Origin: Nannochloropsis oceanica
Lineage: Eukaryota; Sar; Eustigmatophyceae; Eustigmatales; Monodopsidaceae
DNA length: 64,000 bases
NCBI GenBank assembly: GCA_004519485.1
Contig: CP038132.1
Coordinates: 305,001 to 369,000, forward strand
Direction: 5' to 3'
Shown here: piece after piece, positions 23,001 through 50,183 of the stretch
Layout: each line of letters starts with the position of its first letter
Numbering within the stretch: the first letter of the stretch is position 1
Position numbers and translations under genes: made by a program
Notes under the pieces: generated by a model
Seen by the model: the letters and a program-made list of their open reading frames with translations, nothing else
What the model was told of the DNA's origin: nothing
Databases searched by the model: none

Positions 23001-23658
23001 CCATCATAAACACACAACCAAGGCATGCCCAAGACCCTAGTGCGCACGCCTCATCACCGAAAGCTAAATGGCTCATCAACATTTCTTCCAGGAAATGTCC
23101 ATCCATCTCGAGGTAACTTAACTTGAGGCATCAAGTTGGTCGACTCGGAACCTGCCAGCAGTGCTCGGAACTCTACGTCCCGAGAGTATTTCGTGACATC
23201 AAGGCAAGGCAAAGGCTCACAATGAGCCACACGCCACGCTAGCCCTTTCTCTCATCTGTGCAGGGTACCTTTACACATACCTCCCATGATGGCGAACACT
23301 CGTCCAGGCGCCTTTGGTCGCCCTGTCCTGATCGTTTCTTCCTTGTCCTCCGCCGACCTCCTCACCTCCCACTCCTCACTCTTTATGTTCCTTCATGCAC
23401 GCCATGGGCCGCACTCACACACACGGCCAACCCCAAACACAAAGTCGATTTGCCAGCCGATTGCTCCTTTGGTAACCCATTCCACCAAGCCTCCACCATA
23501 TACATATGCATGTAAACATATCAGACAATTACCTTCTCACCTACTTCTTCACAGACTACACCCACCCATCACATCACCGTAAACAGCAGCAAAGGAGCAG
23601 CAGCAGCAGGACCAGAAGCGGCAGTACAATTTATAGCAGTAATAGCAGCAGTACCATC
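23001..23658. other. Intergenic, pyrimidine-rich, no gene seen
   Basis: Runs from the end of the repeat relic to the start of the next coiled-coil gene. Contains a CAG-type cluster (23583-23650) just before that start and no supported gene. Confidence 0.5.
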
Positions 23659-24525
23659 ATGACGACAATTTCCAAAGCCATGGCTCATCGCCCCCCCCGC
23701 TCCTCCTCCCCCCCTACCCCCCACCCTGCGTCCCCCCCAAACCCCTCCTCCTCTTTCTCCTCTTCTATATCCTCCTCCTCTTCCTCCTCTTCCTCCTCCT
23801 CCTACCGTCTCCTCACCTTTGTCAATAACCTCCGTCAATCCACCGATGAAGCCACCACAAGCCTCAACGAGGCCCTGGCGCATATGTCATCCCTCTCCGC
23901 CGAACTCAAGCTTGAGCAAAAGGAAGAAAAACAAATCTTGTCAGAGCTTAAAGAGACCTTGCACCAAACCCGCAAAGTCCAAGCAATAGCCAGCGAAACC
24001 CAGTCGAAAATATTCGAATTGGAGAGACATAATTCTTTGTTGTCGTGGCAGGTAGGTATGGTGAGGGTTCTTGAAGAAGAGGCGACAGAGTTTTTGGATG
24101 GATTTAGGGGGAGATTAGCTTCGGTCCAGGAGAGACATGGTAAGGAGATGGAGGTGGAGATGAAGAAAGCGAGGAAGACGCATATGCATATGACGGAAGC
24201 AAGCAAGGGATTGGTGGTTGCGGTGGCGGGAGTGCAAGCAGCGAAGGAGGAGGGGGAGGAGGCAGCGGCACAATTCCTGGCGATGGAGCAGCAGAGGGAT
24301 GAGGTGAGGGCGGAAATGAGGAAGGAGCAGGAGGAGACGCGGAAGCTGTTGGAAGAGGTGAAAGAGGTCAATTTGAAAATACAACAGACAGATGAGGCGG
24401 TGGGAGAGCTGGAAACGTATGTCATGGCATTGAAGAATGAACGGATGCGCGCGGCGGCAGCGGCATCGAAGGAGGGGGGGGGAGGAAAAGGAGGGGGGAG
24501 GGAGGTGAGGGAGTTGGGAGGCTGA
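23659..24525 (+). CDS. Coiled-coil protein with Ser/Pro-rich head, unknown function
   Basis: Single exon, 288 aa from the ATG at 23659 (MTTISKAMAHRPPRSS). Residues 1-55 are Pro/Ser-rich including a run of about ten serines from TCC repeats. Residues from about 60 to 270 form a long charged coiled coil (SSLSAELKLEQKEEKQILSE onward; KKARKTHMHMTEASKG; QFLAMEQQRDEVRAEMRKEQ). The end is Gly-rich. An in-frame ATG at 23506 would add a Ser/Thr-rich extension but the codon choice there looks non-coding. No domain is recognised; the coiled coil suggests self-association or a scaffold role. Confidence 0.6.
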   Translation: MTTISKAMAHRPPRSSSPPTPHPASPPNPSSSFSSSISSSSSSSSSSSYRLLTFVNNLRQSTDEATTSLNEALAHMSSLSAELKLEQKEEKQILSELKETLHQTRKVQAIASETQSKIFELERHNSLLSWQVGMVRVLEEEATEFLDGFRGRLASVQERHGKEMEVEMKKARKTHMHMTEASKGLVVAVAGVQAAKEEGEEAAAQFLAMEQQRDEVRAEMRKEQEETRKLLEEVKEVNLKIQQTDEAVGELETYVMALKNERMRAAAAASKEGGGGKGGGREVRELGG

Positions 24526-25283: not shown

Positions 25284-27299
25284 ATGGCCAAGACGATGTC
25301 CACCCCGTGGATTTTGCCGGCTGTCAAGGCGGCGTTGGGCGCAGAAGACTCGGCGGGGAGAGTCGGAGCTAGCAATAACAAGCCTGCTGGCCCCTCGGAC
25401 CACCGGCCCAAGGTGGTCCAAGTCGTCCGCGGCTCCACCCAGCACGGCTACCTAGAAGTGAGTGACAAGGAAAACAAGATTGCGGTCTTCCTCACTCCGG
25501 ACGCCCGTCAATCCTTCCACGAGGCCATGCCACAGAAAAGCTTGTCGGGCCTCAGCACCTGCATGGTCAAGCTCGAAAAGTGGCTTGTCTCATATCTACC
25601 CCTCGCTGTGGACTCAGCCACAGGAAGCCTCGCCCACCATTTGCCCCAAAACACAAAGCAAGATGCGCATACGTTTGCGCCATTATGTTTGGTGGCCACA
25701 AAGTTCACCGTGGTTTTGTCAGAGAGGGGGCAATCGACCTATGGCAACCCTCGAAGTATCAACACCATTACCGAAATAAAGAGGCTGTATCGCGAGCTGG
25801 ACCCTAGCGCCCTCATAACCAAGCTTGCCACCGGGCAAGGCCTGCCTCGCCTTCCTGACAGTACTGGCGCGGATGCTCTTCCAGATCCTGTGGATAATCA
25901 ACATCCTGTCACGCTTACCGAGGTAAAGGCAATGCTTGCTCAGGACGCGGCTTACCCCGAGAGGCGTATTGCTGGCGTGAACGTGGCTACAGCCGCCGCA
26001 GCGGCGGCTGCTGCTGCGGCTGCTGTTGTTGCAAAGAGAGCGGTAGGTGCAGTAGAAGTATTGGGAGGAGCGGGCAACGGAGCGCATGCAATCAATGGGG
26101 GAGCAGCAGCAGGACAGCAAATGCAAACACCAGCCGCAGCAGAGACGGGTCGAGCTGGAGCAGCAGATGCAGCAACTGTAGCAGAAAGAGCAGGAGCAAT
26201 TGCAGCGATAGCCTCGCAAGCAGAAGACGAAGAGGGAGAGCAGCAAGAAGAAGGAGAGGCAGAGGGGAAAGAAATCGACGAGGACGATCGGTTGGCTTCT
26301 CAATTTGGCGCGTCGCCTGCCCGGGAATTTGAAACGCAACGTCAGGAGGAGGAGGAAGAGGAGGAAGAGGAGGAAGAATCTTATGAGTCTGTGCCTGTGC
26401 TCATCCCTCCCCCGAGTCCGGCGCGTTCGACACGAAGCGCGGCGAGCATCAAGGCCACCAGCCCTACACGACAGATGCAGCAGCAGCAGCAGGAGGAGGA
26501 GGCGGAGCAGCAACAGCAGCAGGAGCAGCGGCAAGAATCCCCAAGCCGACGACGAAGGACTGTCGCTGCCCCCGTTGATGATGATGCCAAGGAAGGAAAG
26601 AATGAAGAAAGCAAGGCCCTGTCACCAAAGCCAGGAGGTCAGGAAGAGGAGGGGAAGAAGGAGGGCGAGGGTATCTCCACACGTTCTCCAAGGGCGCAAA
26701 TCCTTCAGGCGGGTCCCGGTTCCCCTCATCCACCCTCTCCAGCACAGCGGACGTCCCTGCGACGCAACAAGAAACAACAGGATAGTCAGGCTTGGGCCAT
26801 GCAAACACAAGCGTTCTCTCAAGATTTCTCGCAGACGCAAGTGGACGAATCTCAACAGGAGGAAGAAGAGTTGGAAGAGGAGGAAGAGGAGGAGGAAGAG
26901 AAGGAGGAAGAGGAGGAGGACGAACTGAAAATGGTGCTTCGTCGACCTTCCGTCCCCTTTCCTTCATCCCCTTCCCCGGGCAAGCGTCCTGCGCCCACTG
27001 TATTAGCTGGAGGAGGAGGAGGAGGTCCTTCGCCTACTCGTGTCCGCCTGTCAGCACCCACCTCAGCTGCTGCTGCTGCTACTGCACGGCTTTACCCTGC
27101 CGCAAAAGCAGCAGCTACAGCAGCATCAGCATGCAGGAGTACTAGTAGTAGTACGCCTGTTGATACTAGCAGCCTATTTGGGGGTCGGCCGACCATTTGG
27201 GGGTTGTTGGGTATGTTGAAGCCCGGGGGAAGCTCGCCTTCGCGCAATTTTAGGAAAACTGGTTGTAGTGGAGGGGGAGGAGGGAGTGGAAGAGTGTGA
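25284..27299 (+). CDS. Candidate TPP1/Tpz1-like telomere OB-fold protein
   Basis: Single exon, 671 aa, start in a strong CCACCATGG context. Residues 1-165 are compact and match the layout of the TPP1 (ACD)/Tpz1 OB fold: STPWILPAVKAAL at 6-18 resembles the LRPWI opening of human TPP1; then PKVVQVVRG, HGYLEVSDKENKIAVFLT (human LLVSDGTHSVRCLVT), a variable arm with LVATKFTVVLSE (human FYLQVDRFSLL) and TEIKRLYREL ending the domain. TPP1 links telomere-bound POT1 to telomerase. The remaining 500 residues are disordered with Ala, Glu and Gln runs from microsatellites, plus an AFSQDFSQTQ cluster of SQ/TQ sites. No Zn or catalytic motif is seen. Homology is inferred from memory; it could be another OB-fold protein. 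Confidence 0.5.
   Translation: MAKTMSTPWILPAVKAALGAEDSAGRVGASNNKPAGPSDHRPKVVQVVRGSTQHGYLEVSDKENKIAVFLTPDARQSFHEAMPQKSLSGLSTCMVKLEKWLVSYLPLAVDSATGSLAHHLPQNTKQDAHTFAPLCLVATKFTVVLSERGQSTYGNPRSINTITEIKRLYRELDPSALITKLATGQGLPRLPDSTGADALPDPVDNQHPVTLTEVKAMLAQDAAYPERRIAGVNVATAAAAAAAAAAAVVAKRAVGAVEVLGGAGNGAHAINGGAAAGQQMQTPAAAETGRAGAADAATVAERAGAIAAIASQAEDEEGEQQEEGEAEGKEIDEDDRLASQFGASPAREFETQRQEEEEEEEEEEESYESVPVLIPPPSPARSTRSAASIKATSPTRQMQQQQQEEEAEQQQQQEQRQESPSRRRRTVAAPVDDDAKEGKNEESKALSPKPGGQEEEGKKEGEGISTRSPRAQILQAGPGSPHPPSPAQRTSLRRNKKQQDSQAWAMQTQAFSQDFSQTQVDESQQEEEELEEEEEEEEEKEEEEEDELKMVLRRPSVPFPSSPSPGKRPAPTVLAGGGGGGPSPTRVRLSAPTSAAAAATARLYPAAKAAATAASACRSTSSSTPVDTSSLFGGRPTIWGLLGMLKPGGSSPSRNFRKTGCSGGGGGSGRV
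26347..26379 (+). repeat. GAGGAA-type coding microsatellite
   Basis: One of several acidic-residue repeats in the OB-fold protein (others at 26487-26525, CAG/GAG, and 26855-26925, GAG/GAA). Encodes poly-Glu in the disordered tail. Confidence 0.75.
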
Positions 27300-28036: not shown

Positions 28037-28624
28037 TTAACGAGCGCCGGGGCGCTTGTTCTCAGGCGCTTCTCGCTTTCGTCGGTCCTCCTTGCTGCGG
28101 GAACGGACGAGGCGTTGATGCACGGCGGCCTCCACGGAGTAGTACTGCTTGATGTAAAGCTTGGGCAGTTGGTAGTTCTCGAACACACGCGCCTCCTTGA
28201 TATCACGGGCAGAGGACTGGTCCACGATGGAGCGCACTAACATCCGCTTGATCGCCTTGTCCTTGGGGACGGCCTTGCCGGTGTTGGCGCACCTGGGGTT
28301 GGGTCGGGAGGGAGAGTGCATGAGATTGCTGGGTTTGTTCATTGCAAAAGCACGGGATGGGAGAAGTACCGTCCTTTCTGCAGGACTAAGTGAGATGCAG
28401 GCAGCGTCGCGCGCACAAGGTCATTGGTACCACCGGTTCTGAGGAAAAGACACAAGCTGACCATGCTCCGTTGTGGCAAGCACGACGCTGGACTCACGAC
28501 CATGACCACCCATCCGCTAGACCAGCCAACGACTCCACATTTCACACACTCTTTCTTACCGCACACGCTTGACGTGGCCGCGGCCCTTCTTGTTGCGCCC
28601 GTGATTGCGGCGCTTGACAGTCAT
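28037..28624 (-). CDS. RPS26: 40S ribosomal protein eS26, zinc cysteines mostly lost
   Basis: Two exons, 28560..28624 and 28037..28292 (267-base intron, split Arg22 codon), 106 aa. The start MTVKRRNHGRNKKGRGHVKR and the blocks VPKDKAIKR, ARDIKEARVFENYQLPKLYI and VHQRLVRSRSKE are diagnostic of eS26, which binds mRNA near the small-subunit exit channel. In the usual protein four cysteines (23, 26, 74, 77) hold zinc. Here Cys23 is kept, but position 26 is Thr, 29 is Ala, 74 is Ser and 77 is Ala (RCANTGKAV and YYSVEAAVH). The rest of the fold is well preserved and the frame is intact, so this is probably functional and zinc-free. A second, cysteine-bearing copy elsewhere in the genome cannot be excluded. 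Confidence 0.92.
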
Positions 28625-33328: not shown

Positions 33329-36300
33329 ATGAAGGTGAACTTATATGCGTACGCACACCCACATCGCACACAACCACAGGCGCATCATCCCACCATTACG
33401 CTCGCCGAGGACTCCGATCTGTCAATGAACCCCGCAGCAGCCGCAGTAGCAGCAGCAGCAGCCGCAGTAGCAGCAGCAGCAGCCGCAGCAGCAGCAGCAG
33501 CAATACAACTACCATTACAAGAGTCGCACGGGCGGTTGCCCTTTCCCCTTCTCCTCATCCTGCTAGCCAGCAATTTACCATGTGCTTCACCCTTCATGCT
33601 GCCGGCTTCGGGACCAAGCCCTCCCCCCTTTCCTTCCTCCCTCCCATCTCCTACGTGGGTCACAAAGACCTGCCGCACCCAGACGACGACAATGATGGTC
33701 TACGTGCCACCACCACCGCCCCCGCAATCAGAAATTGATGCCTCGGCGCCTCCCCCCTCAACATATGCCTACTCCTCTTCCCCTTCTTCCGGGTGGTTGG
33801 ACGCGTGGTCCTTACTCCTCAAAGAAATTCGGCCTCCCATCCCTAGCGGCGCCCCGCGGTCCTTCGTTGAGCTCGTCCGCACGGATCGGCAAGGACGGAA
33901 GCGCACGCTAAGTCCTGCTGTCAAAGATGCCGAGATGCGGGAGTCGGTTCGTCGATTTTGGCGAATCCTTTCTCCAGAACTAGGGTATTTGACAACAGAT
34001 GAAGTTGCGCGGGTCAAGCTTGCGTTGGAAGTCAGTTGCTTGGCCCACCAAGGGCAAAAGCGAAAGTCGGGGGCGCCGTTCATCGAACACCCTGTAGAGG
34101 TGGCGAGGATTTTGGCAGGGCTTAGCATGGATGTCGATACGATATGCGCGGGTCTGCTGCACGACACGGCGGAAGACACCCACTTGCGCTTGGAGGAGAT
34201 AGGAGAGATCTTCGGGGAGGGCGTGCGACAGATCGTGGAGGGGGAGACCAAGGTGTCCAAGCTGGCTAAACTGGGTTCGTCGACAGCAGATTACGAGGAA
34301 ACTCAAGCGGAAAATCTCCGGTCACTTTTCTTGGCGATGTGCAATGACTACCGTGTAATTTATGTAAAGCTTTGTGATCGTCTCCACAACATGCGAACTC
34401 TTCAATTTATGTCTCCGGCGAAACAAATGAAGATTTCGAGGGAGACTTTGGACATCTACGCGCCGCTGGCTGATCGACTGGGGGTGAGGGGCCTTAAAAG
34501 TGAATTGGAGGATATCGCGTTTCGGTATGTGTACCCAAAGGAAAGCGAGGAGATCAGCGCGATGCTTGCGAATCGATCGGACGGGTATGAGGACGTGTTA
34601 GCTTCGACTCACATAGCCTTACACCAGATGCTCGAGCGAAAGCTGCTGCTTGACCAGCCCAAGCCGCTCAATTTAACGGTCACGGGGCGGTTGAAAGAGA
34701 AGTATTCGTTGTGGAGGAAGATGGACAGGAAAGCGAAAGAGGTAGGTAAGCCTGTTAGCTTGGACGATATCAAGGATGTAGTGGCCATGCGGATTGTGAT
34801 TAATGTGGATAGGCAGCCGGATGAGCCGGAGAGTGAGTGGAAGGGGCGCGGGATATACTTGTGTTTTCGGGTCATGTATTTGGTCCAGAGGCATTTGTCT
34901 GCTTCGGGTTACAAGAGCACGGTGGAAGACTATGTCTCGATCCCCAAGGTTAACGGCTATCAGTCGTTACACGCTACCATCATGAGGAATGGACAGGTGG
35001 TGGAGGTGCAGATACGGACGGATTGGTACGTTTTTCGTTAATAAAGAGGGAGGGACGGATTTGAGGAAGCAGGAGGGAGTGGGTGCGTTGGGTTGTGGTT
35101 GGAGTTGAGTATGCGTGTATCTGGATGCTTGCTCCGATTGCTCACTCCGCCCTCTTTCCCTCCTTCCTTCTTCTCTTCTTCTACTCTACCCCCTCGAAAG
35201 GATGCATGCCGTTGCCGAGATGGGATTGGCCGCCCACTGGCTCTACAAAGACGAGCAACGCCGGATAAGCGGCCCTGGCGGCAGTAGCAGTAGCAGTAGC
35301 AGTAGCAGTACCAGTACCAGCGGTGTTTCGAGTGGCAGCACCAGCCATTATCGCACTGCTTGGTTAACCTGCCTCAAAGACTGGCAAACGGAAGTGAATG
35401 CCCGGGATTTCGTCGAAGGTATGTGTGCTTGCTTGCCCGTTCGAGTTGATCCATGCTTTTGTTTGTGCACTATTCGCGCAATGGTGCGCCAAGCACACAT
35501 GAGGCATTTACATGTATAACCAGCTGCTGGGGGTTCACTTCTTCCTGCGCACATGCCCTCCTTCAATCTCAATCTCACTTGATCCCCCTCCCTTTCCCAC
35601 CCGTACACAAACACCACGCAGCCGTCCGCGCCGAAATCCTTGGCAGCCGCGTCTCCTTTTTTCTTAAAAACGGACGCATCCACGATCTTCCGCGTGGTGC
35701 CACTCTACTCGATGCCGGCTTCAAACTCCACAAACAAATTGGCTTGCACCTCCGGCTTGCCGAAGTCAACGGCCGTCCGGTCTCGTCTCTGGGGTACGTT
35801 GTCCAAAACGGTGACGTGTTGTACGTTGTGGCTACCCGAAACGCCAAGCCTTCCGTGCCTTGGGTTCGTGCCGCACACTGTCGAACCACGCGTGGGAAAA
35901 TCCGTACGTATTTCCGTACGAAAGAACATGGGGTGGCGGAAGAGGAAGGCCGACGGCTCGTACAAGCCCTGTTGGTATGGAACCAGGTGTTCCTTGAGAA
36001 GAAACTAGGCACGCTTCCGACTCCGGAGGATTTGGAAAGATCAGTAAAATCATTTACGGGTTACGCGTCACTGCAGGAGGTCTACTTTCAGGTGGCACTG
36101 TCGGTGGAGCCCCATGAAACGGGAGCCATGTTGGGAAGAGTGCTGGGACTAGATGCTGAAAGTGCTCATGAGTTGGACTTGACGCCTTTGATGGATAGAG
36201 GGCCGGAGGAGGAGGGTGAGGGATACAGGAAGGAGAGAGGAGAGGAGGTTCGGTTTAGTGCTCGGGGGGAGCAGGAGCCTGTGTATTTGTTGAGTCATAA

Positions 36301-48044: not shown

Positions 48045-50183
48045 TTACGCACGCAAGACCCCCGCTGTGGTAACCGCAGCCGAGGCCGAGGAGGAGGAGG
48101 AGGAGGAGGGAGGGCACGTGGAGGCGCTGGTGCCAGCATCAAGCATGTTCAAGAGCATGTGGTCCAATTCCTCCTCCGTCGTGAAATATCCGTAGTCACT
48201 GTCCTCTTCCATCTCCAGGCCCTCCCTCCCTTCCTCCCCTCCCTCCCTCCCTCCCTCTCCCGCAGCATGCACCATAAATGGCACCGTGGAAGATCCCTTC
48301 ACGAATTGCGACGACACTGCCCCTCCCTCCCTCCTTTCCTGGCTCATGCGCGCCCGTTTCGCGGGCGGGGCTTCCCCACCCTCCAAGAACCCAGCAGCTG
48401 CCACGGCGCCAGCCCTAGCCCTAGCACCAGCAGCCGCGCCGCTCCTCTCCTCGTCGCTTTCATCCGACGGGAGGTAACTTCCCGTAGATGAGGAGGAGTG
48501 GGACCCCGAGTCAGTCAGGCTACTCACCGATACTCCCCGGGCCGGCGCCGACAAGGCAGGCGGCGTTGGCAGCGGGAGCGGGAGATGGTGATGCATCCGC
48601 TCGTCATGCTGCAGCGCATGGGCGTGTAAATGACCCTCGTCCCCCCCCCCAACCCCCCCGACCCCCGTACCTCCAACCCCTTCCAAGGCCCCTAGTGCTT
48701 CGTTCAACGCCTCCCCCCAGTCAGGTGCTGTTCGCCCTGCCAACTCATGGAGCGTCGCAAACGTGTCCTCCTCCTCCTCCTCCTCGCCCTCCTCTTCCTC
48801 TTCCTCCGTTGTACCGGCTGCGCCCGACGAAGAGGCCGAGGCTGAGGACGAGGATGTGGTTGAGGAAGCGCAGCTACCTGCCGGTTGCATCGTCACAGGA
48901 ACGCAATGCATGTACTCCGGTCGATAATTCGTGTACAACTCCTCCTCCTCCTCCTCCTCTTCGTCCCCCTCTCCTTCCTCTCCCCCCTGCTCCATCCTGT
49001 CTTCCTCCTCCTCCTCGACCCCCCCCTCCTCCTCTCCTACCGAATGAACTATATTCAGCGGGAACGTCACCACGCCCGGGTACAAGTCCGCGACCGACGT
49101 CGGAGTTTGCGTCGCCCGTCCTCCCCCTCCCCCTGCCCCGTGCGACGCATCCAACAGACTCGGAAACCCTAAACTGTCCTCTCCCAACACGATCTCGTCG
49201 TCATGATCATCCGCCGAAGGTATCTTGACCATCAATCCTCCGCTGCTGTTGCTGCTGCTGCCCGTGGCCTGATGGTGGTGGTGCTGGTGGAGGTGCCCGT
49301 GGCCATGTAGGGTAGGGTGGCCGCCTGAGGGCATCAATGCACTCCATAGTGTGTGACTGAAGGAGGAGCTGGAGGAATGACGACTGCCTGAATTGAAGCT
49401 GGTGTTGTTGCCGACATGATCACTGTGGCTTAAGCGCTTTTGCTGCCTCCTCCCCCCATTACTGCTGGTCCTAAACACGCCCCCGCTCCCATGGCTGCTG
49501 CTCCCGTCGCCGAAAGTGGCCGTGCCACGGGAGGGGGAGGCAGGGAGGGGGGACATGAACGAAGCAGCCTTGTGGGGCGGCGGACGAGATACACGACCGC
49601 GAGACGTCAGGGTGGTGCCCCGCTGGTACCCACCACGGGCGCTATCCCACCCTTCTTCCTCCCCTTCAGTCTCCTGCCCCCCCTCCACCCCTTGCTCCAT
49701 CGTGGGCCGGCGGGCAACCTCCGCCTCTTCCTCCTCAGAATCTAAACTGAGCACACGACGGCGGTACGTGCTTTTCCCCACCGATCGCTTCTTACGTGCC
49801 AGCGACAAGGGTAAGTCCCCCCCAATCGCCACTCCCATACTCACGCTCACCCCGCTAATGCCACTGCTGCCGTGTGCAAAGGATGATGACGACGCACCAT
49901 GGCTGATGTGGTGGTGGTGGTGGTGGTGGTTCGCCGAGTTTGGAGGCTTCAGCGCAATTGATGTGCTGGTCGCCGGCTCGATTTTGGCCAGCTTCAGGAA
50001 ATATTTCTGGGCGTGCGTTCTAATCTGAACCACAGTACGGGTAGGGATTTCCTCCGCAATCCGCTTCCACTGCTTGCCGTACTTGCGCAGGCCGTCCTCG
50101 AACAAGGTGTGCTCCTCCGTGGTCCACCGACCGGTACTGCTCCCATCCTCTTCATCAGTGTAGCCCTTCTTGAGTCGGGCCAT
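48045..50183 (-). CDS. SHAQKYF-class single-MYB transcription factor
   Basis: Single long exon, 712 aa from the ATG at 50183 (MARLKKGYTDEEDGSS). Residues 19-66 are a MYB-related repeat: RWTTEEHTLFEDGLRKYGKQ, WKRIAEEIPTRTVVQI and RTHAQKYF, the SHAQKYF signature with Arg-Thr in place of Ser. This class includes plant CCA1/LHY/REVEILLE clock and stress factors and binds DNA as a single repeat. The rest is disordered: His, Ser, Gly and Glu runs, then a short conserved-looking end DYGYFTTEEELDHMLLNMLD that may be an activation or interaction helix. The frame opens upstream, and an exon starting near 50361 (MPFHQPQPPR) could be spliced in, so the N-terminus is provisional. The target genes are unknown. 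Confidence 0.85.
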   Translation of the reverse strand: MARLKKGYTDEEDGSSTGRWTTEEHTLFEDGLRKYGKQWKRIAEEIPTRTVVQIRTHAQKYFLKLAKIEPATSTSIALKPPNSANHHHHHHHISHGASSSSFAHGSSGISGVSVSMGVAIGGDLPLSLARKKRSVGKSTYRRRVLSLDSEEEEAEVARRPTMEQGVEGGQETEGEEEGWDSARGGYQRGTTLTSRGRVSRPPPHKAASFMSPLPASPSRGTATFGDGSSSHGSGGVFRTSSNGGRRQQKRLSHSDHVGNNTSFNSGSRHSSSSSFSHTLWSALMPSGGHPTLHGHGHLHQHHHHQATGSSSNSSGGLMVKIPSADDHDDEIVLGEDSLGFPSLLDASHGAGGGGGRATQTPTSVADLYPGVVTFPLNIVHSVGEEEGGVEEEEEDRMEQGGEEGEGDEEEEEEEELYTNYRPEYMHCVPVTMQPAGSCASSTTSSSSASASSSGAAGTTEEEEEEGEEEEEEDTFATLHELAGRTAPDWGEALNEALGALEGVGGTGVGGVGGGDEGHLHAHALQHDERMHHHLPLPLPTPPALSAPARGVSVSSLTDSGSHSSSSTGSYLPSDESDEERSGAAAGARARAGAVAAAGFLEGGEAPPAKRARMSQERREGGAVSSQFVKGSSTVPFMVHAAGEGGREGGEEGREGLEMEEDSDYGYFTTEEELDHMLLNMLDAGTSASTCPPSSSSSSSASAAVTTAGVLRA

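Follow-up and report, generated by a model that had tools for sequence, protein, structure and literature searches.

A candidate TPP1/TEBP-beta-type OB-domain protein in the stramenopile alga Nannochloropsis oceanica

The TPP1-like gene

In animals and fungi, TPP1 is the partner of POT1 and recruits telomerase to the ends of chromosomes. We analyzed a 64,000-nucleotide stretch of the genome of the stramenopile alga Nannochloropsis oceanica (G000:C6:305001-369000; hereafter the window, in whose positions coordinates are given), taken from an assembly of 29.26 Mb in 32 contigs, and describe here a candidate TPP1-like gene on its plus strand (25284-27299). The gene is an uninterrupted open reading frame (ORF) of 671 codons encoding a protein of 671 amino acids. 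It begins with an ATG at 25284, in the context GCCACCATGG, and terminates at a stop codon at 27299; an in-frame stop lies 18 codons upstream of the ATG, and no earlier in-frame ATG is present. The predicted protein comprises an N-terminal OB (oligonucleotide/oligosaccharide-binding)-type domain (residues 1-188; 25284-25847, plus strand) and a long C-terminal tail.

An original prediction, made from the letters of the sequence, had proposed a TPP1-type OB fold encoded by 25284-25790, which corresponds to residues 1-169. The end of this interval cuts through the LYREL motif at residues 168-172. All of the OB motifs named in the prediction are present, namely PWI at residues 8-10, VSDKENKIAVFLT from residue 59, and LYREL.

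Coding statistics favored the ORF. Across the entire OB part, its frame had the highest score of the six (0.076, followed by 0.004), and likewise across the tail (0.162, followed by -0.03); within the middle third of the OB part it was narrowly exceeded by one minus-strand frame (0.060 versus 0.037). A splice-donor-like GTGAGT sits within the VSD motif, but the Pfam match described below nonetheless spans it.

Family placement of the N-terminal domain

The domain alone (residues 1-189, a boundary that we chose for the Pfam search) matched the TPP1/ACD family PF10341 with 26.9 bits and an E-value of 4.8e-6, narrowly passing the curated cut-off of 26.5. The match extends over residues 7-99 (25302-25580, plus strand) and positions 2-102 of the 158-position profile. 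TPP1 was the sole Pfam family below an E-value of 0.1, with the next-best family at 0.22. The RPA, SSB, STN1, and TEN1 families gave no match to the domain at E-values up to 10 in a search whose filters remove most matches above about 0.1. None of five control copies of the domain (one reversed and four shuffled) matched any Pfam family. In a six-frame scan of the genome (29.3 Mb) with PF10341, the TPP1-like gene (26.8 bits) was the only match at E-values up to 1. These results take the pattern noted in the original prediction beyond what chance would give, and the profile search placed the domain in TPP1/ACD, as had been proposed. This family placement, which depends on the profile and not on pairwise identity, is fairly well supported.

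Predicted fold and structural comparison

A single-sequence AlphaFold2 model of the domain (model 1) contains strands at residues 43-51, 56-61, 64-69, 93-100, 105-109, 130-134, 138-145, and 157-160, and helices at residues 72-81, 87-92, 165-171, and 174-183. A second single-sequence model, trimmed to residues 42-185 (model 2), has a similar order of elements, so that the domain appears OB-like in both models, each of low confidence. When the two models were compared with 350,542 chains by Foldseek, TEBP-beta, Est3, and TPP1 ranked first with both. Oxytricha TEBP-beta (1jb7 chain B and relatives) took rows 1-4 for model 1 and row 3 for model 2; yeast Est3 (6q44, 2m9v) was the best row for model 2 and the fifth for model 1. 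Chain G of Tetrahymena telomerase (7uy5/7lma), which we take to be p50, ranked 7 for model 1 and 40 for model 2.

The C-terminal tail

The tail (residues 189-671) is of low complexity. Nine residue types (A, E, G, K, P, Q, R, S, and D) make up 78% of it, compared to 56% of the OB part, and bulky residues account for 14% of the tail versus 29% of the OB part. Residues 190-671 matched no Pfam family at E-values up to 1. The protein has the layout of TPP1, with a lengthy domain-free stretch behind the N-terminal domain, here about 480 residues past the OB domain. Judging from the layout of human TPP1, the POT1-binding segment would be expected directly after the OB domain, at residues 205-230 (25896-25973, plus strand).

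The string AFSQDFSQTQ, named in the original prediction as part of an SQ/TQ cluster in a disordered region, lies in this tail, and the clustering held up statistically. The cluster (residues 501-524; 26784-26855, plus strand) reaches six SQ/TQ in 50 residues. When the tail was shuffled 2000 times, a fraction of 0.0005 attained this density; the total of nine SQ/TQ in the tail is unremarkable (fraction 0.0665). Kinases of the ATM/ATR type may possibly act on the cluster. Toward the end of the tail, a hydrophobic patch (residues 626-648; 27159-27227, plus strand) that includes SLFGGRPTIWGLLGMLKPG stands alone in surroundings poor in bulky residues, and it could possibly serve as a short binding motif. 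Tryptophan occurs in the whole protein at positions 9, 100, 504, and 639 only.

Telomere partners and chromosome ends

A POT1 homologue, whose presence the original prediction had named as support, was found within the same genome. It is encoded on another contig (C19) as a single frame of 852 amino acids, which matched PF02765 with 52.8 bits (E 4.7e-14). Among PDB entries, it matched POT1 chains with E-values starting at 2.7e-5, the best of them presumably human. The telomerase reverse transcriptase TERT is represented on C4 by its RNA-binding domain (G000:C4:11298-11897, minus strand; 61.8 bits, E 9.8e-17), and TEN1 is encoded on C1 (84.6 bits, E 8.4e-23). TTAGGG arrays occur at both ends of C1, and C4 starts with the complement of such an array. 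Across the genome, 1389 overlapping 24-mers of the repeat were counted, versus none for the reversed pattern. Since the TERT domain lies about 11 kb from the CCCTAA-repeat end of C4, the telomerase gene is subtelomeric. C6 and C19 lack CCCTAA in their initial 2000 bases.

Some further features of these loci were recorded. In the POT1 frame (L013:2282-4840, G000:C19), about 240 residues precede the match to the first OB fold; they matched no Pfam family at E-values up to 10 and are possibly an extra N-terminal domain. A weak OB-type match (E 0.008, below cut-off) lies near residues 751-777 of the same frame. At G000:C2:1402002-1402580, two opposed TTAGGG arrays lie within about 200 bases of each other (forward to 1402253, reverse from 1402407), which may reflect either telomere repeats arranged head to head or a join in the assembly.

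Comparison with known telomere proteins

Compared to human TPP1/ACD (PF10341; PDB 2i46 and 7qxa chain O), the algal protein shares a domain match to the profile above the curated cut-off, an OB-like order with C-terminal helices in both models, and a long domain-less region after the N-terminal domain, in a genome that also encodes POT1. Human TPP1, according to a passage in the literature, begins with an OB domain, carries a POT1-binding domain, and binds TIN2 through a region at its C-terminal end (PMC8262337). The fission-yeast TPP1 orthologue Tpz1, as it is described in a passage of the literature (PMC4936895), likewise carries an N-terminal OB fold. The differences from the human protein are the lack of convincing pairwise identity, the alignment of the TEL-patch glutamates with other residues, in an alignment that is not significant, and the lack of a TIN2 or TRF match in the algal genome, all of which are taken up below.

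The ciliate and yeast relatives differ from the algal protein in other ways. Stramenopiles, to which N. oceanica belongs by its lineage, are members of Sar, as are ciliates. TEBP-beta of Oxytricha heads the structural comparison with model 1, but its own family, PF07404, has no match in the algal genome, in a search whose control matched nowhere. The listed chains of Est3 are 170-180 residues in length and are without the long tail of the algal protein.

Weighing the assignment

A number of observations weigh against the assignment to TPP1. With its tail included, the whole protein scores 23.8 bits for PF10341, below the cut-off of 26.5. The alignment to PF10341 stops about two thirds of the way along the profile, and the TPP1 signal is confined to the first hundred residues because residues 101-189, given alone to Pfam, yield no TPP1 match. 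A gapped alignment with human TPP1-OB is weak, being equaled by 29, 37, 42, and 107 of 1000 shuffles under four settings, and an ungapped one does not stand out from shuffles (184, 230, and 117 of 300). A phmmer search of the domain against the PDB gave no matches. In the ungapped alignment anchored on VSD, which is not significant, the human TEL-patch residues E168, E169, and E171 fall on A81, M82, and Q84 of the algal protein.

The structural evidence is subject to similar concerns. Mean pLDDT is 40.4 for model 1 and 50.2 for model 2, both of low confidence. No Foldseek E-value was 0.001 or below for either model, and the query-normalized TM-scores of the family rows were low, at 0.21-0.34 for model 1 and 0.37-0.45 for model 2 (rows among the first 30). 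For model 2, the first RPA70N/Rfa1 rows have E-values no more than about three times the best one. A second look with VIA-align did not separate TPP1 from other OB folds: SSB and RPA70N led for model 1, and HIN domains were level with TPP1 for model 2. The ranking of folds, headed by TEBP-beta, Est3, and TPP1, goes mostly in favor of the original prediction; the E-values are weak, RPA70N is close, and the models are of low confidence.

Genome searches for other components also returned no matches. These covered the TIN2 N-terminal family (PF14973) and the TRF homology family (PF08558), whose controls were below cut-off everywhere, STN1 (PF10451) and the TERT TEN family, whose controls were below cut-off, and TEBP-beta (PF07404; E-values up to 10), whose control matched nowhere. 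They are weak negatives, because such genes are divergent and split by introns and because the controls fell below cut-off. The original reading of the protein as an algal TPP1 was partly supported and right as to kind, on the evidence of the profile, Foldseek, and POT1; with no TIN2 or TRF match, its place in a full shelterin is putative, as is its recruitment of telomerase.

Three other explanations were set against these data. The domain could belong to a different OB family (RPA70N-like, CST-like, or a lineage-specific single-strand binder) and resemble TPP1 in fold alone. We consider this improbable, since TPP1 is the sole Pfam family below 0.1, the filtered searches with RPA, SSB, STN1, and TEN1 were silent, TEN1 is encoded by a different gene, and Foldseek puts the TPP1 superfamily first with both models. 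That the match arose by chance, from a poorly conserved or mis-called gene with an accidental OB pattern, seems very improbable indeed: the E-values of Pfam and Foldseek are modest, but the gene is the only PF10341 match in the genome, all five scrambled copies were silent, the two models agree on the ranking of folds, and the ORF frame is the best of six over both the whole OB part and the tail. The protein is very probably a divergent member of the TPP1/TEBP-beta/Est3 OB superfamily, encoded in a genome that also holds POT1.

Within that superfamily, the protein might instead belong stably to the telomerase particle, as yeast Est3 and ciliate p50 do, and not pair with POT1. The top and fifth Foldseek rows of Est3, the ranks of the Tetrahymena chain G, and the lack of a TIN2 or TRF match are in line with such a role. 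The tailless Est3 chains, however, differ from the algal protein with its roughly 480 residues past the OB domain, a feature that TPP1-domain proteins often have, and POT1 is present in the genome; on balance an Est3-like or p50-like role is unlikely.

Proposed function

The algal protein is probably a divergent TPP1/TEBP-beta-type partner of the alga's POT1 that helps to recruit telomerase. Computation showed the family match and an OB-like order, and it found POT1, TERT, TEN1, and TTAGGG ends in the genome; by analogy with TPP1, we infer that the protein binds POT1, contacts telomerase, and is regulated by phosphorylation. In such a scheme, POT1, the product of a separate gene on another contig, would bind the single-stranded TTAGGG overhang, and the TPP1-like protein would bind POT1 through the segment C-terminal to its OB domain. 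The surface of the OB domain would face TERT, so that telomerase could be brought to and held at the POT1-bound overhang and its extension kept going. The SQ/TQ-containing tail would be a site of action for checkpoint kinases or other telomere proteins, with the SQ/TQ cluster and the hydrophobic patch (about residues 626-648) carrying regulation and contacts.

A passage on the human TEL patch describes E168, E169, and E171 as strictly conserved across mammals (PMC10055720), and in fission yeast, the contact of Tpz1 with telomerase is said in the passage cited to depend on R81 and I77 (PMC4936895). As Tpz1 uses R81 and I77, a different TEL patch is possible, and the human-type patch may not define the wider superfamily. 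The TEL patch of the alga could be built of other residues.

Evolutionary implications

A 2014 survey, in the passages cited here, found the TPP1 Pfam domain in 151 UniProt sequences (release 2013_12), all but three of them from opisthokonts; the exceptions came from Oxytricha (two) and Acanthamoeba (one) (PMC4122937). Its authors noted that a long region frequently follows the N-terminal domain in these proteins, and they suggested that ancestral eukaryotes were without TPP1 and that lateral transfer may have brought it to some ciliates, provided that no divergent homologues have been missed (PMC4122937). A passage in another paper describes Arabidopsis as being without TPP1 (PMC4199523). Among the matches listed from the open-licence literature, no title or abstract dealt with a stramenopile TPP1, and the available portions of texts naming TPP1, POT1, and stramenopiles together mentioned none; public databases may carry an automatic label for the protein.

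Judged by its sequence, the algal protein would be another member of the known TPP1 superfamily, in a lineage that bears on the stated question of the age of the POT1-TPP1 pair. We see the chances as even that the protein is a true orthologue of TPP1 in a photosynthetic member of the stramenopiles. In that case, taken with TEBP-beta of ciliates and the match from Acanthamoeba, it would place a telomerase-recruiting POT1-TPP1 pair close to or at the base of the eukaryotes, with a later loss in plants. A true orthologue would run counter to an opisthokont invention passed sideways to ciliates. With a stramenopile member beside POT1, TERT, and TEN1, an ancient POT1-TPP1 pair would become directly testable in an alga with a small genome.

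Neighboring genes and other observations

Upstream of the TPP1-like gene, on the plus strand, lies a frame of 339 amino acids (23506-24525) with the appearance of a coiled coil and no Pfam match at E-values up to 0.001. Downstream, on the minus strand, is a partial gene for ribosomal protein S26e (28037-28342). Elsewhere in the window, a RelA/SpoT-type enzyme with HD_4 and RelA_SpoT domains is encoded on the plus strand (33329-35041), and a frame of 712 amino acids on the minus strand (48045-50183) has a single N-terminal Myb domain followed by an HAQK motif, in which it presumably resembles plant single-Myb regulators. Outside the window, the 117,556-base contig C32 encodes both Rubisco subunits, in keeping with a stramenopile alga though no proof of one; the best PDB matches of the large subunit are 8bdb and 5n9z, which we take to be structures of red-type Rubisco.
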